From Argopecten irradians (taxonomy: Eukaryota > Mollusca > Bivalvia > Pectinida > Pectinidae), in contig NC_091134.1 in the NCBI RefSeq assembly GCF_041381155.1, forward strand, positions 57,443,467 through 57,507,466: a stretch of 64,000 nucleotides of DNA, read 5' to 3'. Position 1 is the first letter of the stretch, and each line of letters starts with the position of its first letter. Positions 1 to 56,500 of the stretch are shown piece after piece. The notes under the pieces were generated by a model. That model was not told the DNA's origin and searched no databases. It worked only from the letters and a program-made list of their open reading frames with translations. A program made the translations under genes and the position numbers.

Positions 1-3000
1 ATCACAATCCGGTACAAGCTGCTTATATGTCTATACCTAAACCGTTATACCAGGAGGTTAAGGATCATCTAACTGACCTCATGGGAAAGGGATTCATCCG
101 CAAATCACGGTCACCATACTCCAGTCCCGTTGTATGCGTCAGGAAGAAAGATGGTTCGCTGAGGCTATGTGTTGATTATAGAAAAGTCAACCAGAAGACA
201 ATACAAAAAAGTCCTGAGCCTATACCACGTATTCAGGACACTCTTGATGGTCTGACTGGTAGTAAATGGTTCACCGTCCTTGATCAGGGAAAAGCATTTA
301 CCACCAGGGATTCATGTCTGAGAAAAGTAAACCGATCTCTGCATTCACAACACCTTGGGGCTTGTTTTGAATGGAACAGAATTCCTTTCGGTCTAACCGG
401 AGCACCAGGCACCTTCCAGCGGTATATGAACGAAATACTGGAGGATTTTAGGGACAAGTTTTGTATTCCCTATTTAGATGACATCTTGGTTTATAGTCAG
501 AATTTCGAAGATCATCTTACCCATGTTCGGTCAATATTGAAAAGACTACAGGCAAAGGGAATCAAGTTAAAACCCAGAAAATGCGAAATCTTTCGGAGAC
601 AAGTACGTTATCTAGGGTGCCTTGTGTCTGCTGAGGGATATACGATGGACCCCGCGGACAAAGCTGCTGTACTCAAATTGAAAGATCAAGTACCCAAGTC
701 GGTTGGTGATATTCGTAAGCTAGTTGGCTTTCTGGGTTATTATCGAAAATATATACCTGACTTCTCGCGACGCGCAAAAGTTTTATATGATCTTCTTCAG
801 GGGACCAGCGGAAAACCACAGAAATCCAAATCAAAGAAAGCGGTTGGAAAGAAACAAAGTGTAGTGCCCCCTGATCAAAAGATAACATGGTCACCAAAAC
901 ATCAGGATACTCTTGTTGAACTTATAGACCTTTTAGTATCACCACCAGTAATGGCATTCCCAGATTTCCAAAAACCATTTCTGTTACACACTGATGCTTC
1001 AGGTGAGGGTCTCGGTGCAATTTTGTATCAGCGAGGGGACAAGGGACACCTGAACGTCATCGCGTATGCCTCTCGGACATTATCACCAGCTGAACGCAAT
1101 TATCATTCAGGAAAACTAGAATTTCTTGCCCTAAAGTGGGCAATGACCGAACGGTTCCGTGACTATTTATTCTACGCTCCGTTTTGTGAAGTTTACAGTG
1201 ATAACAACCCTTTGCAATATGTGATGTCCTCAGCAAAATTAGATGCAACACGCCTACGTTGGGTAGGGGAATTAGCGGATTTCAAATTCCGAGTCTATTA
1301 CAAGCCAGGAAAAGATAATCGGGACGCCGACGGATTAAGTCGTATGCCGTTAGACATTTCGAAGATGGTGTCCTTATGTACACAGGAAATTGACAGTGAA
1401 GCTGTCCGTACCATTATTAATGGAAGTGTCTTACAACTAAAGAAGAACTTTGTATGGGCTGAATCTGTCAGTCAGTCGGCCCCAATGCATTCCCAACTTG
1501 AAGACATACTCAACATGGACTCACCAGGTGAGCCTTTATCAGTAACAACATTAAGGGAAGCCCAACTACAGGACAACGACGTTGGACCTGTGATGCAATA
1601 TGTTGGATGTGCAACAAAACCAAACCCAGAGAATCTTCGTCAAATGTCATTGCCATCAAAACGTCTGCTGCGTGAGTGGTCAAAACTTCAAATTGACGAG
1701 GACGGTATTTTTGAAACGAGTAGTACCTGTTTCGAATGGAGATTCCAGATTCCAACTAGTTCTTCCGTCCAAATACCGTGCTGAAGTGTTGGAATCTCTA
1801 CATTCAGACATGGGTCACCTGGGTGCAGCGCGAGTTTTGGATTTGGCAAGATCAAGATTCTATTGGCCAGGAATGGCGTCAGAAATTGAACATTGGGTGC
1901 AGAATGTTTGTTCCTGTCTCAAGGACAAACCCCCATCAAGAAAACAACGTGCTCCACTGAAACCAATAGCGACAACACATCCTTTCGAAATGGTATCGGT
2001 AGATTATGTTCACCTTGGAAAAATCGAAGGGTGGATATGAGTATATCTTAGTTCTCGTTGATCATTTCACGCGTTTCGCACAGGCTTACCCCACTACCAA
2101 CAAATCTGGGAAGACAGCAGCGGAGAAAAATATTCAACGACTTTGTGATGAGATTTGGTATGCCACACAAGCTTCACCATGACCAAGGCCGTGAATTTGA
2201 AAATGAACTATTTGGCAGACTGCAAACATAATGTGGAATCAAACACTCCCGTACCACACCCTATCATCCCGAAGGAACGGACAGACAGAGAGATTTAATA
2301 GAACACTTTTAGGAATGCTTCGTACTCTGCCTAAGGGTCTTAAATCTGACTGGAAGTCCCATGTCAACAAGGTTGTGTATGCCTACAATGCAACGCGAAA
2401 CGACACTACTGGATATCCCCCATTTAGGCTACTATTTGGTCACGAACCACTCCTACCAGTTGATGTTCGTTTTTGAGAAAGCACCCACGGGAATGTTCAG
2501 CTCAAATCTAAGAGCTACGAGGAATATCACAGGAAATGGATGGAGGGCATGGAAAAAGCATATGAAATTGTTCGTCGAAATGCAAACAAATCTGCTTTGA
2601 AGGGTAAGAGACTCCATGACTCGAAATATGGATGTGCATCCCTAGTACCTGGTGATAAAGTGCTTGGTAAGGAACTTCAAGGAGAAAGGAGGCCCTGGTA
2701 AACTTAGGTCGTATTGGGAGGAAGATGTTCATGTTGTGATTCATCGCCCAAACAATGATTCTCCAGTCTACGACGTTCAGGCAACAGGTGGGAAAGGTTC
2801 GCCGTTTACATCGCAATATGTTAATGCCATGTAATAGTTTGAGAGAACCAGAAGTGAAGGTTCCAAAACCCAAGAGGAGAAAACGTCCTCAAACGCGACA
2901 ACCGGTACGTAATATTTCGAGTTCCTCCTCAGAATCTGATGAAGACTTCCGTATTCTAAGACCACCTTCTGATCTTAACCCGGATGCTGAGACATTTGTC

Positions 3001-5812
3001 CCAAGTCAAGATGTACAATCTTCAGGACTACGGCGTCAGTCAGAGGCAGTCAGCTCAGAAATGTCAGATTCGTTAGCGAGCTCAACAGACAGTGAAACAG
3101 TTACGAAGACTGTGCTGAGAAACCGTCAAGGGGGAACGTGTATTCCAAACAGTGGATGTGAATCTACAATCCAGGGACGACACATGGAATCGGCACCAAG
3201 ACAACCAAATCAGCAAACCGCGGGTATCGTTTCTGAAAGTGAATATGACACATCCTGTTCAGAGTCGCGAAGAAGTGTACGAACGCGAAAACCAATTAAC
3301 AGATTGACATATGATCAGTACGGCAAGCCAATTTCATACAATGCTTGGCCAATACGCGCGTGGGACGCGGGATATAATTATTAGCAAAACTAACTTTGAT
3401 ATCATATATCGCATGTAAATATATTGTTGGATAAGTTTGAAAGTTCTAGTCAATATGGAAGTGTAATCGTTACAGTATTATAAACATTCAGTTCAATATT
3501 TTTGTCCAATAAGGTGGTGCTAGATTTGTAATCAATCTAGTTGAGTGGAAGGTTTATGGAGACATTTACAATTATGTATAAAACATAAAACATTGTGTTT
3601 ATGATTGAATACTTTTATTCAAGTAGTCAGTTAGGTGTGGCCAACCTGTTGACAGAATTTCTTTTGTAAAGAAAAGGAGGTTTAATACCTTAGTACACAA
3701 TATTGTAGATAATCTTACCAAGAGCTCACTAAATGAGTATACCTTCCTGTTGTTGACAATGAATAGAGTATCTAGATTTTCATTGTTAAAGAAAAGTGCC
3801 AATATGAGTTAAGTTGCTGATTGAAGTAAACTAAAAGTTTTAAGTCAGTGGTTAAAGGAAAAGGGGAGCTGTTTCCCCTAGGTGAGGATTTTGGTCGTGA
3901 AACTACTGCAGAGTATTGAATAAGATAATTCAAGAGTTCAGGTTTAATATTTTTTTATTACTTATTGTTCATTCTGGTTAACAGAAGTTGATGAGAGTAT
4001 GTACATGTGTTACCTACATTTTGTTGATGTCTAAAGATGTTTTCAATGTCAGGAGACATCTAATTTGGAGGGGGAGAGTGTGACGGTTTGACTGTTTAAT
4101 AGTGGGCTATAAAATTTTTTGGTATAAATACGTAATCGAGGGCGCCCTAGAACTTCTCACTGTTGATGACGTAATCGAACGCATCCCAACTATTGATACG
4201 TTTGAACCGCCATTGATGATGTGTCTGTTTTCCTTCTCCAGGTATGTTTTCATGATTTCTGTGAATTTATTCATTGATCAGCTTGTCCAAGTATTATACA
4301 CATGTGCATAAGGTGTTTATACATTAAGTTGAATGTATGATTAAGCATGATAGACCCTGTAAATATTGTTATGAGTGATTTGAAGCGTGCCGGTTTTGCA
4401 CAGCGTTCATCCATGTGATGCCATGGATAACTGTATTGTCTAAAGAGGGTTTTTGGCACCATCGCATTAATCTTTCTTGATATTAAGTGTTTCTGAAGTA
4501 TTTCTTAATTGTTTATAACTTCGATAGAATAATAATACCGGAAATTATGTCAAATTAGGAAATCCTCTCATTCGTTTTATTCTAAGATTACCCATAATGC
4601 TTTTCGAAATACGCGCCAGATTGATAGCACATGGTTTTTCCCATGATGCACCGGAAACATGGCTGCGCCCATGAAAGCTAGTTCCGGTTCTGTTTTCATT
4701 TATAATAAAGTACTAAATTGGGTATTATTTTAATACTAGTCATAAGTAAACAGGTCTAGTCCAGTTGTTAACTAATAATTGTACTGTTTTTTTAGTAAAT
4801 ATGAATTATTTCAGGGATAATGTGAACAAATAACTGATACAAACCAAATTGTAGAATATTTTTATTTTTGTTGTCATTGTTTCATTAACTATATAATATG
4901 GTTCTAATCCAGTTATAAGTATTCAAGGGTTATTATAGTTAATTAATGGCCCAAGTCAGGATTGTTTCCTGAGAACTCAGGCTTTGTGTCTGTGTTTGTG
5001 AATAACGATTGACCCTGTGAACCGCCATTGTTGATGAGTGATTTGAAGCGTGCCGGTTTTGCACAGCGTTCATCCATGTGATGCCATGGATAACTGTATT
5101 GTCTAAAGAGGGTTTTTGGCTACCATCGCATTAATCTTTCTTGATATTAAGTGTTTCTGAAGTATTTCTTAATTGTTTATAACTTCGATAGAATAATAAT
5201 ACCGGAAATTATGTCAAATTAGGAAATCCTCTCATTCGTTTTATTCTAAGATTACCCATAATGCTTTTCGAAATACGCGCCAGATTGATAGCACATGGTT
5301 TTTCCCATGATGCACCGGAAACATGGCTGCGCCCATGAAAGCTAGTTCCGGTTCTGTTTTCATTTATAATAAAGTACTAAATTGGGTATTATTTTAATAC
5401 TAGTCATAAGTAAACAGGTCTAGTCCAGTTGTTAACTAATAATTGTACTGTTTTTTTAGTAAATATGAATTATTTCAGGGATAATGTGAACAAATAACTG
5501 ATACAAACCAAATTGTAGAATATTTTTATTTTTGTTGTCATTGTTTCATTAACTATATAATATGGTTCTAATTACACAAATCCAGTTATAAGTATTCAAG
5601 GGTTAGCTCTGATATATAGTTAATTATCTGTGGTAATGGCCCAAGTCAGGATTGTTTCCTGAGAACTCAGGCTTTGTGTCTGTAATATTGATGCTTTGGT
5701 TTGTGAATAAACGATTGATACGTTTGAACCGCCATTGATGATGTGTCTGTTTTCCTTCTCCGTGTCTACCTGTAGTCTAAACCTCGTGCACTCCGTGTGC
5801 ACAAGGGTGTAA
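1..5812 (+). mobile_element. Ty3/Gypsy LTR retrotransposon, 3' part, broken fossil
   Basis: Protein-level resemblance gives the usual Ty3/Gypsy order: reverse transcriptase from the left window edge to about 620 (YLDD at about 470-480), RNase H about 960-1330, integrase zinc-binding and core regions about 1790-2470, and a basic then Ser-rich C-terminal tail to 3384 that ends in a conserved-looking RKP-x-NRLTYD stretch. About 680 bp of non-coding DNA follows, then a purine tract just before 4079 and the 3' LTR. The gag, protease and 5' LTR lie outside the window. The pol region has a handful of breaks, so the copy looks dead. Age cannot be read because the partner LTR is not here. Right edge is approximate. 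Confidence 0.9.
4079..5812 (+). repeat. 3' LTR of the Gypsy fossil, with internal tandem duplication
   Basis: The LTR starts with TGTGACGG immediately after a purine-rich tract. TATA-like motifs (CTATAAAA, GTATAAATA) follow within 60 bp, as expected of a promoter-bearing LTR. A roughly 670-700 bp block is present twice in tandem (about 4350-5010 and 5012-5733). Both units contain the same landmark around 'gaagcgtgccggttttgcac'. A 40-bp segment near 4200 recurs near 5722, so the LTR has been internally expanded. The end near 5812 is inferred from the loss of repeat similarity and is uncertain by tens of bases. Confidence 0.6.
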
Positions 5813-7839: not shown

Positions 7840-7965
7840 AAATTTGGATTTAGAACATATGCAACAAGACTGGGACTCGAACCGGGATCTCCGCGCAATA
7901 GAGATGTAACAGTAATTGATCAGAAGTCTCTCATCAGCCGTTCAACGCAGTCCAACGATGTTGAT
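7840..7965 (-). repeat. Possible tRNA-derived SINE head
   Basis: On the minus strand there is a good pol III B-box (GGTTCGAGTCCC) inside a T-arm-like hairpin. An A-box-like stretch lies about 60-80 nt upstream of it. It is not a clean cloverleaf, and it differs from the tRNA-like sequence at 33 kb, so it is probably another tRNA-derived repeat rather than a tRNA gene. Confidence 0.35.
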
Positions 7966-12070: not shown

Positions 12071-29459
<17,389 letters not shown>

Positions 29460-32700: not shown

Positions 32701-35700
32701 AATCATGCATGGCATGTGAAGAGCAAAGCTCTACTTGTTTATTTTCTTTTCTATTTCAAGTAGAAGTCATAATTTCAAAAATAAAATGATGTACTTTGAA
32801 GTAGACCTATACTAGTAAGGGCACGAAATGCGAAGCACTTCTTAGATCACACAAACATGAAAGTATAAGAAAGAAAAAAAACAGTTTTCAAAATTCAATC
32901 CTACACTCTGAAAATTTCAGTTAGCGGCTGCCATTTTTTACCCTATGTATCCGTGTGAATGCGATACTTTGAAGTAATCTTGTTATAAAATCAAGCGATC
33001 CAAACACTCTTATGATCCGATCATCAGGCAGGAGCTTATAGTGCTGTAACAGGAGAGAAGAAAATGTAGCGACCAGACCGGGATTCGAACCCGGAACCCT
33101 CCGAACACTAGCCGAGTTCTCTACTGACTGAGCTACCTGGTCACCGATGATCGACCAAGTCCAATCCCGCTACACTCCTCGCTCCTTTCTCAAAGTCTTT
33201 GCCCTTAAAGACACACGAGACCCTTCCAAACACCATCACCATGGGTTATTTAGTTGGGCGCCAATTCTGTAACAGGAGAGGAGAAAATGTAGCGGCCAGA
33301 CTGGGATTTGAACCCGGGACCCTCTGAACACTAACCGAGTGTTCTACTGACTGAGCTACCTGGTCACCCAGGGGTTTTATTATCAGGCGGTACCCAGTAC
33401 TTTTTGCCGGTTGAACCTGGCTGTGGTACCGCTTGATTTGGGCTAAATTACATTGGATAGCATACAGATGGTATAGAAAAGTACCCCCTGAAATTGCAAT
33501 TGTACCGCCTTTCCTGGAAACCCCTATCACCGATGATCGACCCAGTTCAATCCGGCTACAGTGCTATCACTCTTTATTTGCAAGCCTTGAAGTAATTTGG
33601 ACCATGCAGCTTCCAATATAATCGGCTGACCAAAAACAGAAATTCCATTACAGAAATAAAATTTCTTTCTTCTCAAATAGGGGTTTGGAACAAGGATAGA
33701 GTGTGAATATATGTATAAAAATAAACAGAAAATTCTGCTCTGTTATTTCCATAAATTGCACATTTTAAAATTGCATAATTTATGGTTACTGAAACATCTG
33801 GCTGCGCCTTTTAAGGCCTTGCCTTCAGTCATGTTATACGATATAATAATTTTCTAGTATAATAAAAATTTTAGTTTCAACAGAACTCAAAGATTCAAAT
33901 TTGGACGTTGATTTTCTGTGTCCACGCAGTGCTACAGGCCTGGGGTGCCACGAATGTGAATCCTATGAATTCGCGCCATTTGTTGACGTGATGAAACGTC
34001 ATGATTCATTGTGCTCATCTACACTTGGTAGATATTTTGACTGCATTCCATAGCTTTTTTTAATTTCAAAAGTGTTATCATTATTCCTTTTAAAAAAATG
34101 TTTAATTACTCCTGTAAATGCATTTGCATTATTTAAATATATTTATTGTGGAAAGCAGTATCGAAGCAATGCACAAACCGGAACAGGTTAAACAAAAAAA
34201 AAAATTAGCCATCTATCCATGCAGTTCATAATTGATCTCAGTCATGTATTTTTGCTTACGTACATGTTACCGGAACAGAACTTCGAAAGAGCTTTGCTCT
34301 TATAAATTTAGGCAAAGTATATCTGAGAGCGCACTAATTAATCCATTCTTTCGTTTGTTGGTTTTTAATTGTTACCAAATAGAAAAATACCTGACCCAGC
34401 GATTGAGCTCTTATCAATGTTATGTGTTTTGTTCTTATTACTTATTGTGTGCATTGACTTACTGTACTGTCGAAACCATTTTTATAATGAATGAACTGAA
34501 TTACTGGCATGGAGTTTATAACAAGAAAAACAATATTTAGCATAAACTACTTCTACTTTCACTTTATGCAAAAATATGTGACTGGCAGTACATCATGTGA
34601 CATATTTTTGCATAAAGTGAAAGAAGAAGTCACTGACTGTGGCTAAAAAATGTTTCTTGCATTTAAGTTTTGATGTGAGATCTGCCAAGGGTTTCAGGGA
34701 GAGTATCGTACTGAATACTCTTGGCTAGCTAGTGAAGTTGCATTTATAGTCAATTTACATGGATTTTTGTTACTATCTAAATTCTCTTCTTACTCTGTGT
34801 AGTTACTGCATTTAAAAAAAAAAACAATGTTTAAAGAGGACACCTCCATTTCTGAGATGTTTTTTTCATCATCCATTATTTTCCTTTTACATTGCAGTAT
34901 TATCAATAGAACCTCATCATGTTTTTACTGTGGATATCAAGTCACAAGAAATAAGTGATCCCTACAACACAGATGAGGCACCAGAACCTACAGGTAAGTG
35001 CTTCTTCTGTTTATTAAAATATAAAGCTGGGATTGAATATGTAACAGAACATGTTGAGACCAGACCGGGCTCTGAACATCAACAGAATGCATTACTGGTG
35101 AAATACTTGATAACCTATATAGCTATGACTTACTGATAACCAAGTTCTGTTACACTCTTCCTCTTTGCTTTACCAAACACACAACAATTCACAAGTTTGC
35201 ATATCCCGTGCTTAGTCAATTGTACTTCCAATGCAGGGGTTGGCAAGCTTGTTCATTTTCTAACGAGAGAGGAGACAATGTTTTGTAGCCAGATCAAGGT
35301 TCAAGTCTGGGACCTCCGAGTACGATACTGTAGCTGGATGCTCTATCAATTAGTTACTTAGTTTAAATATAGCGATGATCGACCCTGTGCAATTCTGCTA
35401 AAATATATACTGTCTACTCTGTAACTAGTGTTGTTCTGATTAATCGATTTAGTCGATGTCTAGTCGTTTCTAACCAGAAATTGATTAATCAATCTTTGTT
35501 TATCATAATCGATCACAGTGACTCACGTTGGCAATATATAATGATAAGAATTTTGTGGATCATGACGTATATTTATTGCCAAGGAAGCTAGCATTTAATC
35601 TACATCTTCATTTTCCGATGTAAATGTGTGAAAGACGATTCCTGCTACAATATCAGGACATATGGATTTTCCCAGAAACAAAAGTGAAAGATTGGTAATT

Positions 35701-38700
35701 TGGTAGAAACGTCACTTGTTTGGAAGTGATGATCGATCATGAAAATGCAACTGATTCCCAGCAGTATCTATTCCCAGTGTTCTCAGTTAGCACACAAAAT
35801 TCTCCATTAATTCTTTACAATGTACCTTATATGCTATTATCAGGTTTTTAAAAGGACATGAACCTTTAAGTAATTTAAACTGTAAGTTTGACTAAAATAC
35901 ATATATCTATGGCATGTCAGATACCTTACTAATTAGAATATATCAATTATTATGCATATATTATTAATTATATGTCGATACTTTCGTGCGAAGTCCTTCC
36001 GTCCGTCTTTCGTCTTTTAACATTTCTTGTTACTGCTATTTCTCAGAAAGGGCTGAAGGGATCTTTCTCAAATTTCATAAGTAGGTTCCCCTAGGACCCT
36101 AGTTGTGCATATTGCATTTTGTGACAAATCAGTCAACAAGATGGCGGTAAGGCAGCCATCTTGGATTTTGATAGTTAAAGTTTGTTACCATTATTTCTCA
36201 GAAAGTACTGAAGGAAGGTCTCTCAAATTTCATGTCCAGGTTCCCCAAGGGCTTTAGTTTTGCATATTGCATTTTAGGACCTATCATTTAAGAAGTTCAT
36301 TTTGTATTTTGATAGTTGAAGTTTGTTACTGCTATTTCTCAGAAAGTACTAAAGTGATCTGTCTCAAATTTTATATGTAGTTTGTTTGAAAAAGTTTGAA
36401 AAGCGGAGAAAAGATCCCTCTTTCCCTTGTCAGACATTGATCATTCTTTGTTGGGGGCCAAGATCCATCTGAAATCTTTTGTAAGAATTGTATTTGAACC
36501 TGTTATAATTCTTTGATTCATTTAGTATTTTTTGTTGCCTATAGCTGAATGCACGCTGCAATTTTCTTATGTGGAGAACTATCCAGAAGAGCCACCAGTG
36601 TTTGAAATTACAGAATATGAAAACTTGGAGGAAGATCAAATTGAAACACTGAACAGTTTGATAACGGAAAATGTAAGTATATTACACATCAGTCACAACT
36701 CTGTAACCAGACATAAATAAAATCTAGGAAAAAAAATTTTCAGCTCAATAAGTTTAGCATGGCCACAAGTTAGATCACAGGCAAGGTTACATGTCAGATC
36801 TTTGGCAAAATATTGATAGTTATGATCTAATAATTGTTATTTTGTTGTAGATAAAGGGGAGCAACTCTAAAATTATTTTAGTAAGATCATAGCTGGTTTA
36901 GAAAATGAAATTTCCTCAGTTTGATAATTTTGCCTTATCTAGAAGTTACTGACAAGGTCAGATCATGAGCAAAGTCATTGGTCAGATCACTGGCAAAGCC
37001 ATGTGTCAGATCACTGACAAAGCCACGTGTCAGATCACTGGCAAAGCCATGTGTCAGATCACTGGCAAAGCCACGTGTCAGATCACTGACAAAGCCACGT
37101 GTCAGATCACTGACAAAGCCACGTGTCAGATCACTGGCAAAGCCATGTGTCAGATCACTGACAAAGCCACGTGTCAGATCACTGGCAAAGCCACGTGTCA
37201 GATCACTGGCAAAGCCATGTGTCAGATCACTGGCAAAGCCACGTGTCAGATCACTGACAAAGCCACGTGTCAGATCACTGACAAAGCCACGTGTCAGATC
37301 ACTGACAAATAGTGGTTTCTGATGTAGAAACTATTATCAGACTTCATTTTGCATATACAGTAAAACCCCGTTATATTGCCACCCGTTTTACCGCCAAACC
37401 CGCTTATCGCCATGAATTTATTCAGAACGGATTTCCCTCCATACAAATACACCCGTTATACCGCCAAACCCGCCTACCGCCATCCGCCATCACATTTGCG
37501 GAACAAATGATTAAAATAACACTATAATGACCTCATTAATATCGCCAAATTCTGTTGATAGGGACACATGTTTTTGTAAAGCTGCCGACTGACAGGTAAA
37601 CAGCTAAACACACACTATGGCCGCGTGTATGACCCTGTGTGCACGGTGAAATCAATTAACAATATGGGTACAACTTTGTTATAGTTTTACAGGTAGGTGT
37701 CGTAAGTTGTGGTGAATAAAACTCACTTCTGAACATGCATTTTACGTACTATTAACGTTAGTTATTTATTGACAAAAAGGAACCCACAAAGTTGTTTCTC
37801 GATATCGCCGTTCGTTTATATTGGACTATAAAATGCAACTAGCAATTTAAAGAGCGATAGAAATATTACGTACGTGCAGAAGAATCCGCTGTTTATAAGT
37901 AAGATCAAATCGTTGTCTGAGTGCCGTTTATTACCGGAGTACCTGTTTTGATATTTGCAGACATGTGCTTATGTGAGGTCACGATATACCGTCAAACTCG
38001 ATATATCGCCAAAATTTAGGAAAACAGAAGGTGGCGATATAACGGGGTTTTACTGTACATTGTATATACATGTACATGTATTTGATATTAATTTTATTCA
38101 AATGATGTAACGTTTTATGATACATATTAATTTTGACAGATTGAGGAATCTCTTGGAATGGTGATGATATTTACCATAGTCTCAGCTGTACAGGAAAAGC
38201 TCACAGAGATTGTTGAGGAATCAAGGAAGAAGCGGATAGAGGATGCAGAAGCAGCGAAAAAATTACTGGAAGAACAGGAAATGGTAAATTATATATATAT
38301 ATATATAAACTTTATTCTATAGGACAATATTATCTCTCATAATGACAACATTCATATATTTCTTTGAATTGTCTGGAATACTTGCAACAATCTATCATGT
38401 ATAAATTCAGAATAGCAGTTTTAATTGGTGTATTGAAAGTTTCACTATATGTTCCTTGTAAAAGTAATGACCATATATGTATGTCAGTTATTTCATGGTA
38501 CACTTTTTATGTGCAGAAAAAGTTTGAGGGAACCAGAGTTACAATAGAAACCTTCCTTGCATGGAAAGCTAAATTTGACGCAGAGATGAGTGAACAGAAA
38601 AGGCTGAAAAATCAGACAGTTGTAGGTCCTAAGGGTCTCACAGGTAGGCATTAATATTCTGTGTCTTTGTTTAGTGCTTAGATCTTTTGACCCAAGGTCA

Positions 38701-41016: not shown

Positions 41017-42009
41017 TAGGTCATCTGACTGAAGGGTGAGGATGACCTACAATGTATAGTCGTATGTTTCATCCGTCCATCGTCCGCAGTGCGCCGTCCG
41101 TTAACTTTTCACATTTTGAACTTCTTCTCAAGTTCTACCAGTGCGATTTAGCTGAAACTTACATGAAATGGTCATGACATGGTCCCGACCAAGTGTTGTT
41201 ATTTTTCGGGTCGATCCGAAATTAAAGATGGCCACCACAGCCGCCATCAAAAACACATTTTGAACTTCTTCTCAAGTTCTACGAGTGCGATTTAGCTGAA
41301 AATTGCATGAAATGATCCTGACATGGTCCTGTCAAATTTTGTTAATTTTCGGGTCGATCTGATATCCAAGATGGCAGCCGCCATATTGAAAACACATTTT
41401 GAACTTCTTCTCAAATTCTATCGGTGTGATTTAGCTGAAATTGCATTAAATGATCATGACATGGCCCGACTAAGTGTTGTTATTTTTCGGGTCGATCCGA
41501 AATCAAAGATGGCCGCCACAGCCGCCATCTTGAAAACACATTTTGAACTTCTTCTCAAATTCTACCGGGTAATTTAGCTGAAACTTGCATGAAATGATCC
41601 CAACATGGTCTCAACAAAGTGTTGTTATTTTTCGGGTCAATCCGAAATCCAAGATGGCCGCCACAGCCGTCATCTTGAAAACACATTTTGAACTTCTTCT
41701 CAACTTCTACCAGTACGATTTGGCTGAAACTTGCATGAAATGATTCTGACATAGTCCCGATAAAGTGTTGTTATTTTTCGGGTCAATCCGAAATCCAAGA
41801 TGGCCGCCACAGCCGTCATCTTGAAAACACATGTTGAACTTCTTCTCAAGTTCTACCGGTGCGATTTGGCTGAAACTTGCATGAAAAGATCCTGACATGG
41901 TCCCGACAAAGTATTGTTACATTTCTGCTTGATCTCAAATCGAAGATGGCTACCATGACACTGTATCCAATTAATTTCCTATACGTTAAGGCCCTTGGGC
42001 CTCTTGTTT
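41017..42009 (-). mobile_element. Hairpin-bounded tandem-core element (copy D)
   Basis: Read on minus it starts AAACAAG + perfect hairpin AGGCCCAAGGGCCT and ends with hairpin AGGTCATC...GATGACCT + A-rich. About six ~150-bp units each carry 'cacattttgaacttcttctc', 'gatttagctgaaacttgcat', 'gttatttttcgggtcgatcc' and 'aagatggccgccacagccg'. Same plan as copies A-C with unrelated core sequence. Confidence 0.8.
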
Positions 42010-53382: not shown

Positions 53383-53581
53383 TAGCGATAAAAGACAATT
53401 TAAATAATTTCTGTGGTATCTAGAATTACCCCGTTTGTGGTATCCAAACTGCAGTCTGTTAGCTGCATCATTAATATTGCAAGAGCTAATCTCCGGTAGG
53501 GCCCTCTTGTCACCGATCGCGTGCCAACATTCCAGAGGTATGTGCTAATCGCTAACGCAGTGTACTTTCGATCTACATAAG

Positions 53582-56500
53582 ATGACAACAAACTGCCAGT
53601 GCCGTTTCTCGTCCTCCTTAGGTCAGACTCAGAAGCAAGCAGGTGGTGAATTTTACCCTGCTTCAGGAACAGACACCCGTTGCTCTGAAATCTCGCGCCA
53701 AACCGTCATGACAGTAAAGGAAAGAAGTAGCAAGAAACAAAGTGGCGGAAAATCAGCCTATCGACATGTCCCCCATAGCCAAAAACCGCCGCAGGTTGTC
53801 GAACGTCGAAACGCACGTGAGAGAAGGCGCGTGCAGGCTGTCAACACTGCATTTTTACGTCTCAGAAAGCACGTTCCGTCACATACGAAACAGAAGAGAC
53901 TTTCAAAAGTGAAAACTCTGAGAGTGGCGATTGATTATATAAAACAATTGCAAGATATGATTGTGGACCACGATCATTCAGTTGGTGGTTTTCACCGAAA
54001 GGTTTTGCCAAGTACAGATAATATTGGACAGGAAAATGTTATTCCAAAAATACGAAACATTAACGAAAATTTAGCAATGGTACCGAGAAAGCCTCATTTT
54101 CCATGGGATATGCCAAAGAATTGTTCTCAATCACAGGTGAGATTTGTTTTGTATTTCTGTTCCTCTACATTAAGTTCGTCAAACACTCATAACTTTACTT
54201 GGACATCGATTATAACGTTATTAGTTTTAACGTACATGTATTCTTTGATATTTTATCCTAACTTGTTATATCGATAGCATATGACCTTGATTCTATCAAT
54301 CTCTTTACTCTTAGTTCCTGTCTTCATGAACTTATTCTGTCCATTTGTATTCTGTAATTATAAATAGGCTTACATTTATTTGCAGAGTCCATGATTCACG
54401 TATATAATGTCACTAGCAAAACTACTCCTTTATTTTAAATGGTGTCTTTTGTATTTAGAATTGCTAAGTGATAATTGTATTAGATACTGTATGGGAAATA
54501 ACAATGTCTTATACATAAAATGTGTAAAAGACGATATTGAATATCCATTGAGAGTTTGAATTAATCAATTACTACAATGAAAATCACTTAAATGATAAGA
54601 TCTTACTATAAATCTACTATTCATGTTATTACAGTGGAAAGATATGTTGTTCATCAATCATTTAGGTTTCAAACTGTTGAACAGGATTTATGTTGAATTC
54701 CAGCATTTCAAACACAACGGAGTAAATTGTTTTTAGAAATGTTGTAGCTTCATAATGTACAATGTATTGTCTAGTATGCAATATAACATTAAATATTTGA
54801 TTTGATCTATTAATATATTTTTTCTCGTTTTCCAGAACTAATGAATAAAGAGATAAGTAAAAGTTACTTACTTAAACACTGTCAAATCACGTAGGTTTCA
54901 TTAAAATGTGTAGTTTACATCAATGAGAATAACTGATCTTGTTAATTCTAAAGTTTTCTTTATCTAAAAAAAGTTCACTAAAATATTTGGAATTCACACC
55001 ATGTTCTTTGTTATACATAACCCAATGGTTTATAGGCAGTGTTTTACACATAAATAAAGTTCAATATACGGTTTTTTGTCTCATAACTTGATGTGTAGTA
55101 TGATCAATTTATTAGTGGATTAACCAAAAACTGTTATTTAAATTGTATAAATTCTTTAGCTGTCACTAACACATTTGTTCTTGTATTTTTTATTTCAATA
55201 AAAATACAATAGGCTTGAATATTGATAAACTGATATGTGGTCTGAAAAAAAGGAAACTATATCAACAATTATGTATAAAGGGGTTCCTGAAGCAGGGAGA
55301 AATTGGTGTAGGAAAGTTCTTGTCTATTAATCTATGTCAAATCTACTTACTAGGATGGACTGATTAAAGGTTGTCTTTTTTACTGTTGATATAATTTTTT
55401 GTACTTTATGATTAATTTATTTTGTATGGTAGACATGTCCTTTATGCCTAATAATCCGTTCTGATATAACTATTTGTGAGTAACAATCATCTTACACTTA
55501 TTATTACAATTTCGGTACCTCCAAGAAAGAAAGTTTAATATTTTGAAAGATATGCATTTTTCATATCCTGTTTTCATTGTTTCATTTTCTAACATTATTT
55601 TCTAAACGTTGTGTATTTAAATGATATCATCCTATCCAATTGACGATTTATAATCATAAGTGAAAGTGAATGAATTTGTACAATGATGAAATTAAAACCA
55701 TTTGATAATTTTCACTTCATGTATACACTTCTGAACTTTGGATGATTTGGAAGACGTTTTAGTTTGAAGGAATCGTCGCTTAGCAATAAAACAGTAATTC
55801 TTGTAACAATAGAATATAGAAGGTAAATCGTCAAATCTTCTGGTTCGTCAATTTCACAATAGCTGTTCAATAATTCAATAATTTCGAATATTTGTGACAT
55901 CTATGTTTTATGACACATTATAGTGTACATAGTTTAATCGTTTCATTGTACCATTGTATGTACATATATATATATATATGATAAATTTAAAGAAAAATCC
56001 TTACGGATTGTTTTTATTTCTTATATATATATATTTTTTTTAATTTAATGGAAAAGTATTAGCACTACAGGTTCTTAGAAATAAAACCACCTCATCATAT
56101 CGAAATTCCAACGAAACCAAGAAAGACTGTTTAGATAGTTTCGGTATATGATAAGCTTTAATATAACATCTCTGTGTTTTCTGTTGTGTAAACGTGTCTA
56201 AGTTGAATAAGATATTAATGTTCTTGTCAGAAGTATGGTACTTTGGCTACTGATTTCGTTTCAATGAAATGAGAATTTCCAATGAAAGGTTACTCTATTC
56301 AATACAAGATATTGTAAATTATCATCGGTTTGTTCATGAATGCCCCATTATCTTTTTATCGAAGTCGTGAATATGTGTACAAGCAATTTTTACTAAATGC
56401 TGAAATTGAACATTGTTTTGTTCTAAATATGGAAATAAGATTTTTATACCCGAACTCGTCAGAAGTTATTCACTACCATAAACATCCGTATTCAAGTTTC

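Follow-up and report, generated by a model that had tools for sequence, protein, structure and literature searches.

Positions 33045-33560 of the 64-kb stretch of DNA analysed here (the window) hold a pair of short repeats, each with a tRNA-like sequence inside. Do they belong to an LTR retrotransposon transcribed from a pol III promoter of its own, to an LTR element in which the tRNA is a passenger, to a pair of working tRNA genes, or to two neighbouring SINEs? The preliminary description had proposed a hybrid of SINE and LTR logic and had named no animal counterpart of Cassandra, the plant element with a small-RNA promoter in its LTRs. The latter statement is superseded, as tRNA-bearing elements of this kind were published in 2024 under the name Helenus (PMC10886601). 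The locus is very probably an old Helenus-type TRIM (TRIMp3) into which another sequence was inserted later; TRIMs of this type are LTR retrotransposons that lack genes and whose LTRs carry a pol III promoter derived from a tRNA. This assignment is a match of described features.

Architecture of the element

The element comprises 353 bp plus a nested insert of 158 bp and reads on the minus strand (sense 33560→33045), an orientation that we add to the preliminary description. The coordinates given there are exact, and sequence analysis recovered each of its parts: the 130-bp TGT...ACA repeats, the 93-bp interior, the nested insert, the primer-binding site (PBS), and the purine tract (Table 1). 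Both LTRs have the same exact TGT...ACA ends and the same order of U3, tRNA-like sequence, and short U5. The interior is too short for mobility proteins, and the arrangement of 130 + 93 + 130 bp without a coding region is that of a TRIM. A comparison of the LTRs in two pieces shows 12 differences over 130 positions, corresponding to a Jukes-Cantor distance of 0.099, and on this ground we regard the copy as old. Three of the differences fall within U3 (3/33) and nine in the remainder (9/101), the two parts overlapping by four identical columns; by reading of the alignment, three of the twelve are CpG-type changes.

The nested insert has short inverted ends and interrupts the sense 5' LTR. In a BLAST comparison with the window, its only other match extends over 13 bases (E 0.32). 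It may be of the hAT-like class.

Table 1. Features of the main element and of the second, decayed element (positions in the window)
Feature	Positions	Strand	Remarks
Target-site duplication GTGC, left	33041..33044	.	Sequence and script
3' LTR in sense (LTR_A)	33045..33174	-	130 bp, TGT...ACA
TTTT, predicted pol III terminator	33061..33064	-	Only TTTT of the 3' LTR; 5 bases past the tRNA discriminator base; putative function
tRNA-like sequence, 3' LTR	33069..33142	-	ARAGORN tRNA-Thr (agt); Rfam 33070-33142, 45.2 bits
Interior, non-coding	33175..33267	-	93 bp; sequence
Polypurine tract, adjoins sense 3' LTR	33175..33191	-	Purines 16/17
PBS TGGCGCCCAAC	33253..33263	-	Identical to Drosophila gypsy PBS 11-mer (tRNA-Lys)
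5' LTR in sense (LTR_B), downstream part with tRNA-like sequence	33268..33368	-	LTR comparison
TTTT, predicted first terminator, to be read through	33284..33287	-	No other TTTT in the 5' LTR apart from the insert; putative function
tRNA-like sequence, 5' LTR	33292..33365	-	ARAGORN anticodon unclear, 4-base 'agtg'; Rfam 26.7 bits
Nested insert, MITE-like, foreign to the element	33369..33526	.	158 bp; ends CAGGGGTTT / AAACCCCTA; 5-bp TCACC duplication
5' LTR in sense (LTR_B), U3 part	33527..33560	-	33527-33531 is one TCACC copy of the insert's duplication
Target-site duplication GTGC, right	33561..33564	.	Script
Second element, decayed 3' LTR in sense	35040..35154	-	Starts TGTAAC, ends TGTTACA; score 45 (35046-35118), maximum of 33 in 2000 shuffles
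Second element, polypurine tract	35155..35171	-	Purines 16/17
Second element, decayed 5' LTR in sense	35261..35400	-	Score 66 against LTR_A, maximum of 30 in 2000 shuffles

The signals for reverse transcription and integration lie where an LTR element has them. The PBS is located four bases from the end of the 5' LTR, and its sequence, TGGCGCCCAAC, has a single exact occurrence on the two strands of the 64 kb. The same 11-mer is the PBS of Drosophila gypsy, with tRNA-Lys as the named primer, and labelling in a gypsy reporter fell or was lost when the 11-mer was mutated or deleted (PMC6541305). On the side of the 3' LTR, the interior begins with the polypurine tract (PPT); counting both strands of the window, 0.09% of all 17-mers are as rich in purines. 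The flanking duplication, earlier put at 4-5 bp, is present and measures 4 bp, not 5. In this window, two 4-bp words at about this spacing are identical with a frequency of 0.006. The element at 33045-33560 has a PBS after the 5' LTR, a PPT before the 3' LTR, and a 4-bp duplication, as Helenus elements of animals do.

tRNA-like sequences in both LTRs

Both tRNA-like sequences have the sense orientation relative to the element, and they are the two tRNA genes that ARAGORN reports in the 64 kb. In a covariance scan, which the preliminary description had put forward as a check, the LTR_A copy is the sole hit to any Rfam family above gathering in the whole window, and the 5' LTR copy remains below the tRNA cut-off of 29 bits. 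The cloverleaf with A and B boxes and a Thr (AGT) anticodon, described earlier for each repeat, is accordingly borne out in part: ARAGORN recognizes a tRNA-like sequence in both LTRs, but a clean Thr (AGT) in one.

With the A-box pattern loosened by one base, a relaxation chosen with these copies in view to fit them, the window contains two pairs of A and B boxes at tRNA spacing (44), one in each of these LTRs. The strict A-box pattern is unmatched in both copies, which have CAG at the box end where CGG is expected. The tRNA-derived LTR sequence with A and B boxes that characterizes Helenus is hence present, its A box in the relaxed form only. A 5S rRNA, which would point to Cassandra, has no Rfam match at the locus up to E = 1, and tRNA is the only family above gathering there.

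A second paired copy and other features of the window

On the same strand, 1.5 kb from the main element, positions 35040-35400 hold a more decayed relic built in a similar way. Its parts are arranged as in the main element: an LTR, the interior, a tract with 16/17 purines, and the other LTR. Its LTR scores exceed those of all dinucleotide shuffles (n = 2000; Table 1), while an opposite-strand control scores 18, like its shuffles. In a control over the whole window with 60 shuffled queries, the score of 66 lies above all and the score of 45 above all but one. The interior of the relic is unlike that of the main element (score 18; 1010 of 2000 shuffles as high), the best candidate for a PBS has five mismatches in 11 positions and is not recognizable as such, no clean target duplication was seen by eye in the flanks, and the sequence read contains no A-tail. 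Both copies that can be recognized in the window are paired.

Convincing solo LTRs were not found in the window. At 7852-7901 (minus strand), a lone B box, GGTTCGAGTCCC, coincides with a borderline LTR-like match (score 45; one of 60 shuffled queries scored higher in the whole window), possibly a tRNA SINE or the remnant of a solo LTR. Another LTR-like match, at 59.80 kb, scores 34 and falls within the range of the 60 shuffled queries (mean 31.8, maximum 47). A search of viral contigs with the LTR-end pattern gave 0 matches.

The window further contains a broken Gypsy-type LTR retrotransposon (3-3384, plus strand) with matches to reverse transcriptase, RNase H, and H2C2 integrase in broken frames and a weak integrase-core match below the Pfam cut-off; the window does not reach the 5' end of this retrotransposon. 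In BLAST searches against the window, the interior of the main element has no match but its own at E up to 1, the LTR and interior queries being one base off the final borders. Consequently, no partnership with these Gypsy remains is demonstrable. A second retroelement remnant, perhaps LINE-like, is located at 13688-14743 on the minus strand (RVT_3, E 6.3e-07; RNase H below the Pfam cut-off). Tandem arrays occupy 22887-24253 (155-156 bp units), 41110-41950 (146 bp), and 36957-37309 (24 bp), and the consensus units of the 155-bp and 146-bp arrays have the stretch ATCCAAGAT in common. An open frame at 53549-54277 (plus strand) encodes a helix-loop-helix domain (E 5.5e-19) and probably belongs to a host transcription-factor gene.

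Relation to Helenus and other TRIMs

Kojima (2024) named TRIMs with tRNA-derived LTR sequences Helenus, which together with Ajax and Cassandra make up TRIMp3 (PMC10886601). Helenus occurs in six animal phyla, is reported from five bivalve orders, counts 51 families in pteriomorph bivalves, and ranges from 311 to 1263 bp in length. The primers of the bivalve families include tRNA-Lys, target duplications in animal families are 4 bp long, and Gypsy is the presumed helper of animal Helenus (all PMC10886601). A 2026 meeting report also mentions Helenus work.

Compared by description, the element at 33045-33560 shows no difference from the bivalve Helenus families in the features that PMC10886601 describes: it shares their TRIM size, a tRNA-derived part with both box motifs in its two LTRs, the PPT, the 4-bp duplication, and, with some families, the Thr type of the tRNA and a primer site for tRNA-Lys. 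This resemblance is also the one ground on which a bivalve host is likely. The earlier reading as a hybrid of SINE and LTR fits this anatomy and coincides with the published interpretation of Helenus; its claim to novelty falls. We regard the hybrid interpretation as plausible; both it and the kind of element were already in print.

Other TRIMs resemble the element less closely. Cassandra of plants is likewise a gene-less LTR element with a pol III promoter inside its LTRs, and its transcript runs from the small-RNA part of one LTR to that of the other (PMC10886601). It differs in carrying a 5S rRNA instead of a tRNA and a methionine PBS (PMC10853983), and it is reported from plants. The animal TRIM biv-TRIM, of bivalves, has a PPT and, at 77-80 bp, a short interior, and it is known in tandem and solo forms; its repeats measure 202-218 bp, it has no unambiguous PBS, and no tRNA-derived repeat part is mentioned in the portions of PMC6934838 at hand. 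PbTRIM of the harvester ant shares 4-bp duplications, a PBS, and a PPT, but its PBS is of the tRNA-Leu type, and the portions of PMC3532108 at hand mention no tRNA-like sequence in its LTRs.

Proposed transcription and retrotransposition

With the A and B boxes directing it, pol III would start at or just before the tRNA-like sequence of the 5' LTR. One T4 run lies 5 nt behind the tRNA-like sequence of each LTR and another in the insert, while the interior is free of T4. Since these are the only T4 runs of the LTRs, a full-length RNA needs read-through in the 5' LTR. Pol III can read through T4. A fraction of the polymerases would thus pass the first T4, cross the T4-free interior, and end at the corresponding TTTT of the 3' LTR. 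The predicted RNA, which runs from 33365 to 33061 on the minus strand and measures about 305 nt, would carry the tRNA unit at both ends and in this way obtain the R region that LTR-type reverse transcription needs. Transcripts halted at the first T4 would measure 82 nt and be dead ends for copying. A helper Gypsy element would provide capsid, reverse transcriptase, and integrase; minus-strand DNA would be primed by tRNA-Lys at TGGCGCCCAAC, the plus strand by the purine tract, and integrase would generate the GTGC duplication.

The inferred placement of termination and read-through is what our analysis adds to the published Helenus model. In the main text of PMC10886601 the word terminator occurs once, with reference to Cassandra, and a discussion of a terminator for Helenus was not found in the portions at hand. 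According to the same source, pol III transcription of Helenus is without experimental validation. A wider proposal combines three elements: the tRNA unit as R region; the T4 as a built-in switch that turns most transcripts into 82-nt tRNA-like RNAs and leaves a read-through fraction as the template of about 305 nt; and the spread of such LTRs as the cause of the bivalve tRNA-Thr excess considered below. We offer it tentatively and regard it as rather doubtful in its entirety.

Alternative readings

The T4 behind the 5' LTR tRNA counts against the pol III model, as it should stop many transcripts before the PBS. It thereby favors a TRIM that captured its tRNA by chance as a passenger and is transcribed by pol II from U3, as LTR elements normally are. 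The pol III model is also weakened by the A box, which departs from the strict consensus in both copies, and by the folding energies given below. In the LTR pieces and the interior, however, the sense strand contains neither a TATA box (TATA[AT]) nor a poly-A signal (A[AT]TAAA). Moreover, the B box is kept in both LTRs despite their 9% divergence, and a comparison of Helenus families reveals conservation around the A and B boxes (PMC10886601). We therefore judge pol II transcription of a passenger tRNA unlikely.

For LTR_A, the ARAGORN call, the Rfam score, and fully paired acceptor and T stems would also suit a functional tRNA-Thr gene that the element spreads and that adds to the host tRNA pool, and seven bivalve Helenus families can encode a tRNA-Thr (PMC10886601). 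The 5' LTR copy speaks against such genes, with its score below the Rfam cut-off, its unclear anticodon, and one unpaired position in each of the two stems. Further, the tRNA-like strands fold with energies no better than those of shuffles (z -0.94 and 0.07), and the minimum-energy folds of the two strands both fall short of a full cloverleaf. A contribution of Helenus to functional tRNAs was itself judged unlikely (PMC10886601). On the ARAGORN, Rfam, and folding results, a pair of functional tRNA genes is disfavored and very improbable: the tRNA-like sequence would act as a promoter, and a role as a working tRNA is unlikely.

An ordinary tRNA-derived SINE, present as a tandem or neighboring pair by chance, is rejected for this window as scarcely credible, even though the tRNA-like part of each LTR resembles a SINE head and the lone B box at 7852-7901 comes with a weak LTR-like match: instead of the single unit with an A-rich or simple-repeat tail and a LINE-type duplication that marks tRNA SINEs (SINE2), the locus has no A-rich tail (longest A run 3 in the LTR pieces and interior), exact TGT...ACA ends common to both copies, a PBS and a PPT at the inner junctions, a 4-bp duplication around the pair, and a second paired relic of similar layout nearby.

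tRNA-Thr excess in bivalves

The Helenus-type TRIM at 33045-33560, with its Thr-type tRNA, may also bear on tRNA gene counts in bivalves. Ostrea edulis has 339 tRNA-Thr genes, 282 of them AGU, and Mercenaria mercenaria has 791, an excess for which additional analyses were said to be needed (PMC9679248). Helenus-type LTRs may be a candidate explanation for the excess in both species. Venerida, the order of Mercenaria, is not among the five bivalve orders with reported Helenus. Against this explanation, a tRNA-Ser motif that is even more enriched lies outside repeated elements, and the tRNA genes are unclustered (PMC9679248). In C. gigas, 641 tRNA genes (PMC9679248) stand against 1124 LTRs of one Helenus family (PMC10886601), and many Helenus LTRs are consequently not counted as tRNA genes in that species.

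The element described here provides independent support for tRNA promoters built into animal LTR elements. It is a clear anatomical example and comes with a testable prediction of where its RNA would start and stop. Where such elements occur, their LTRs may inflate tRNA gene counts, as has been found for rust fungi (PMC10886601).
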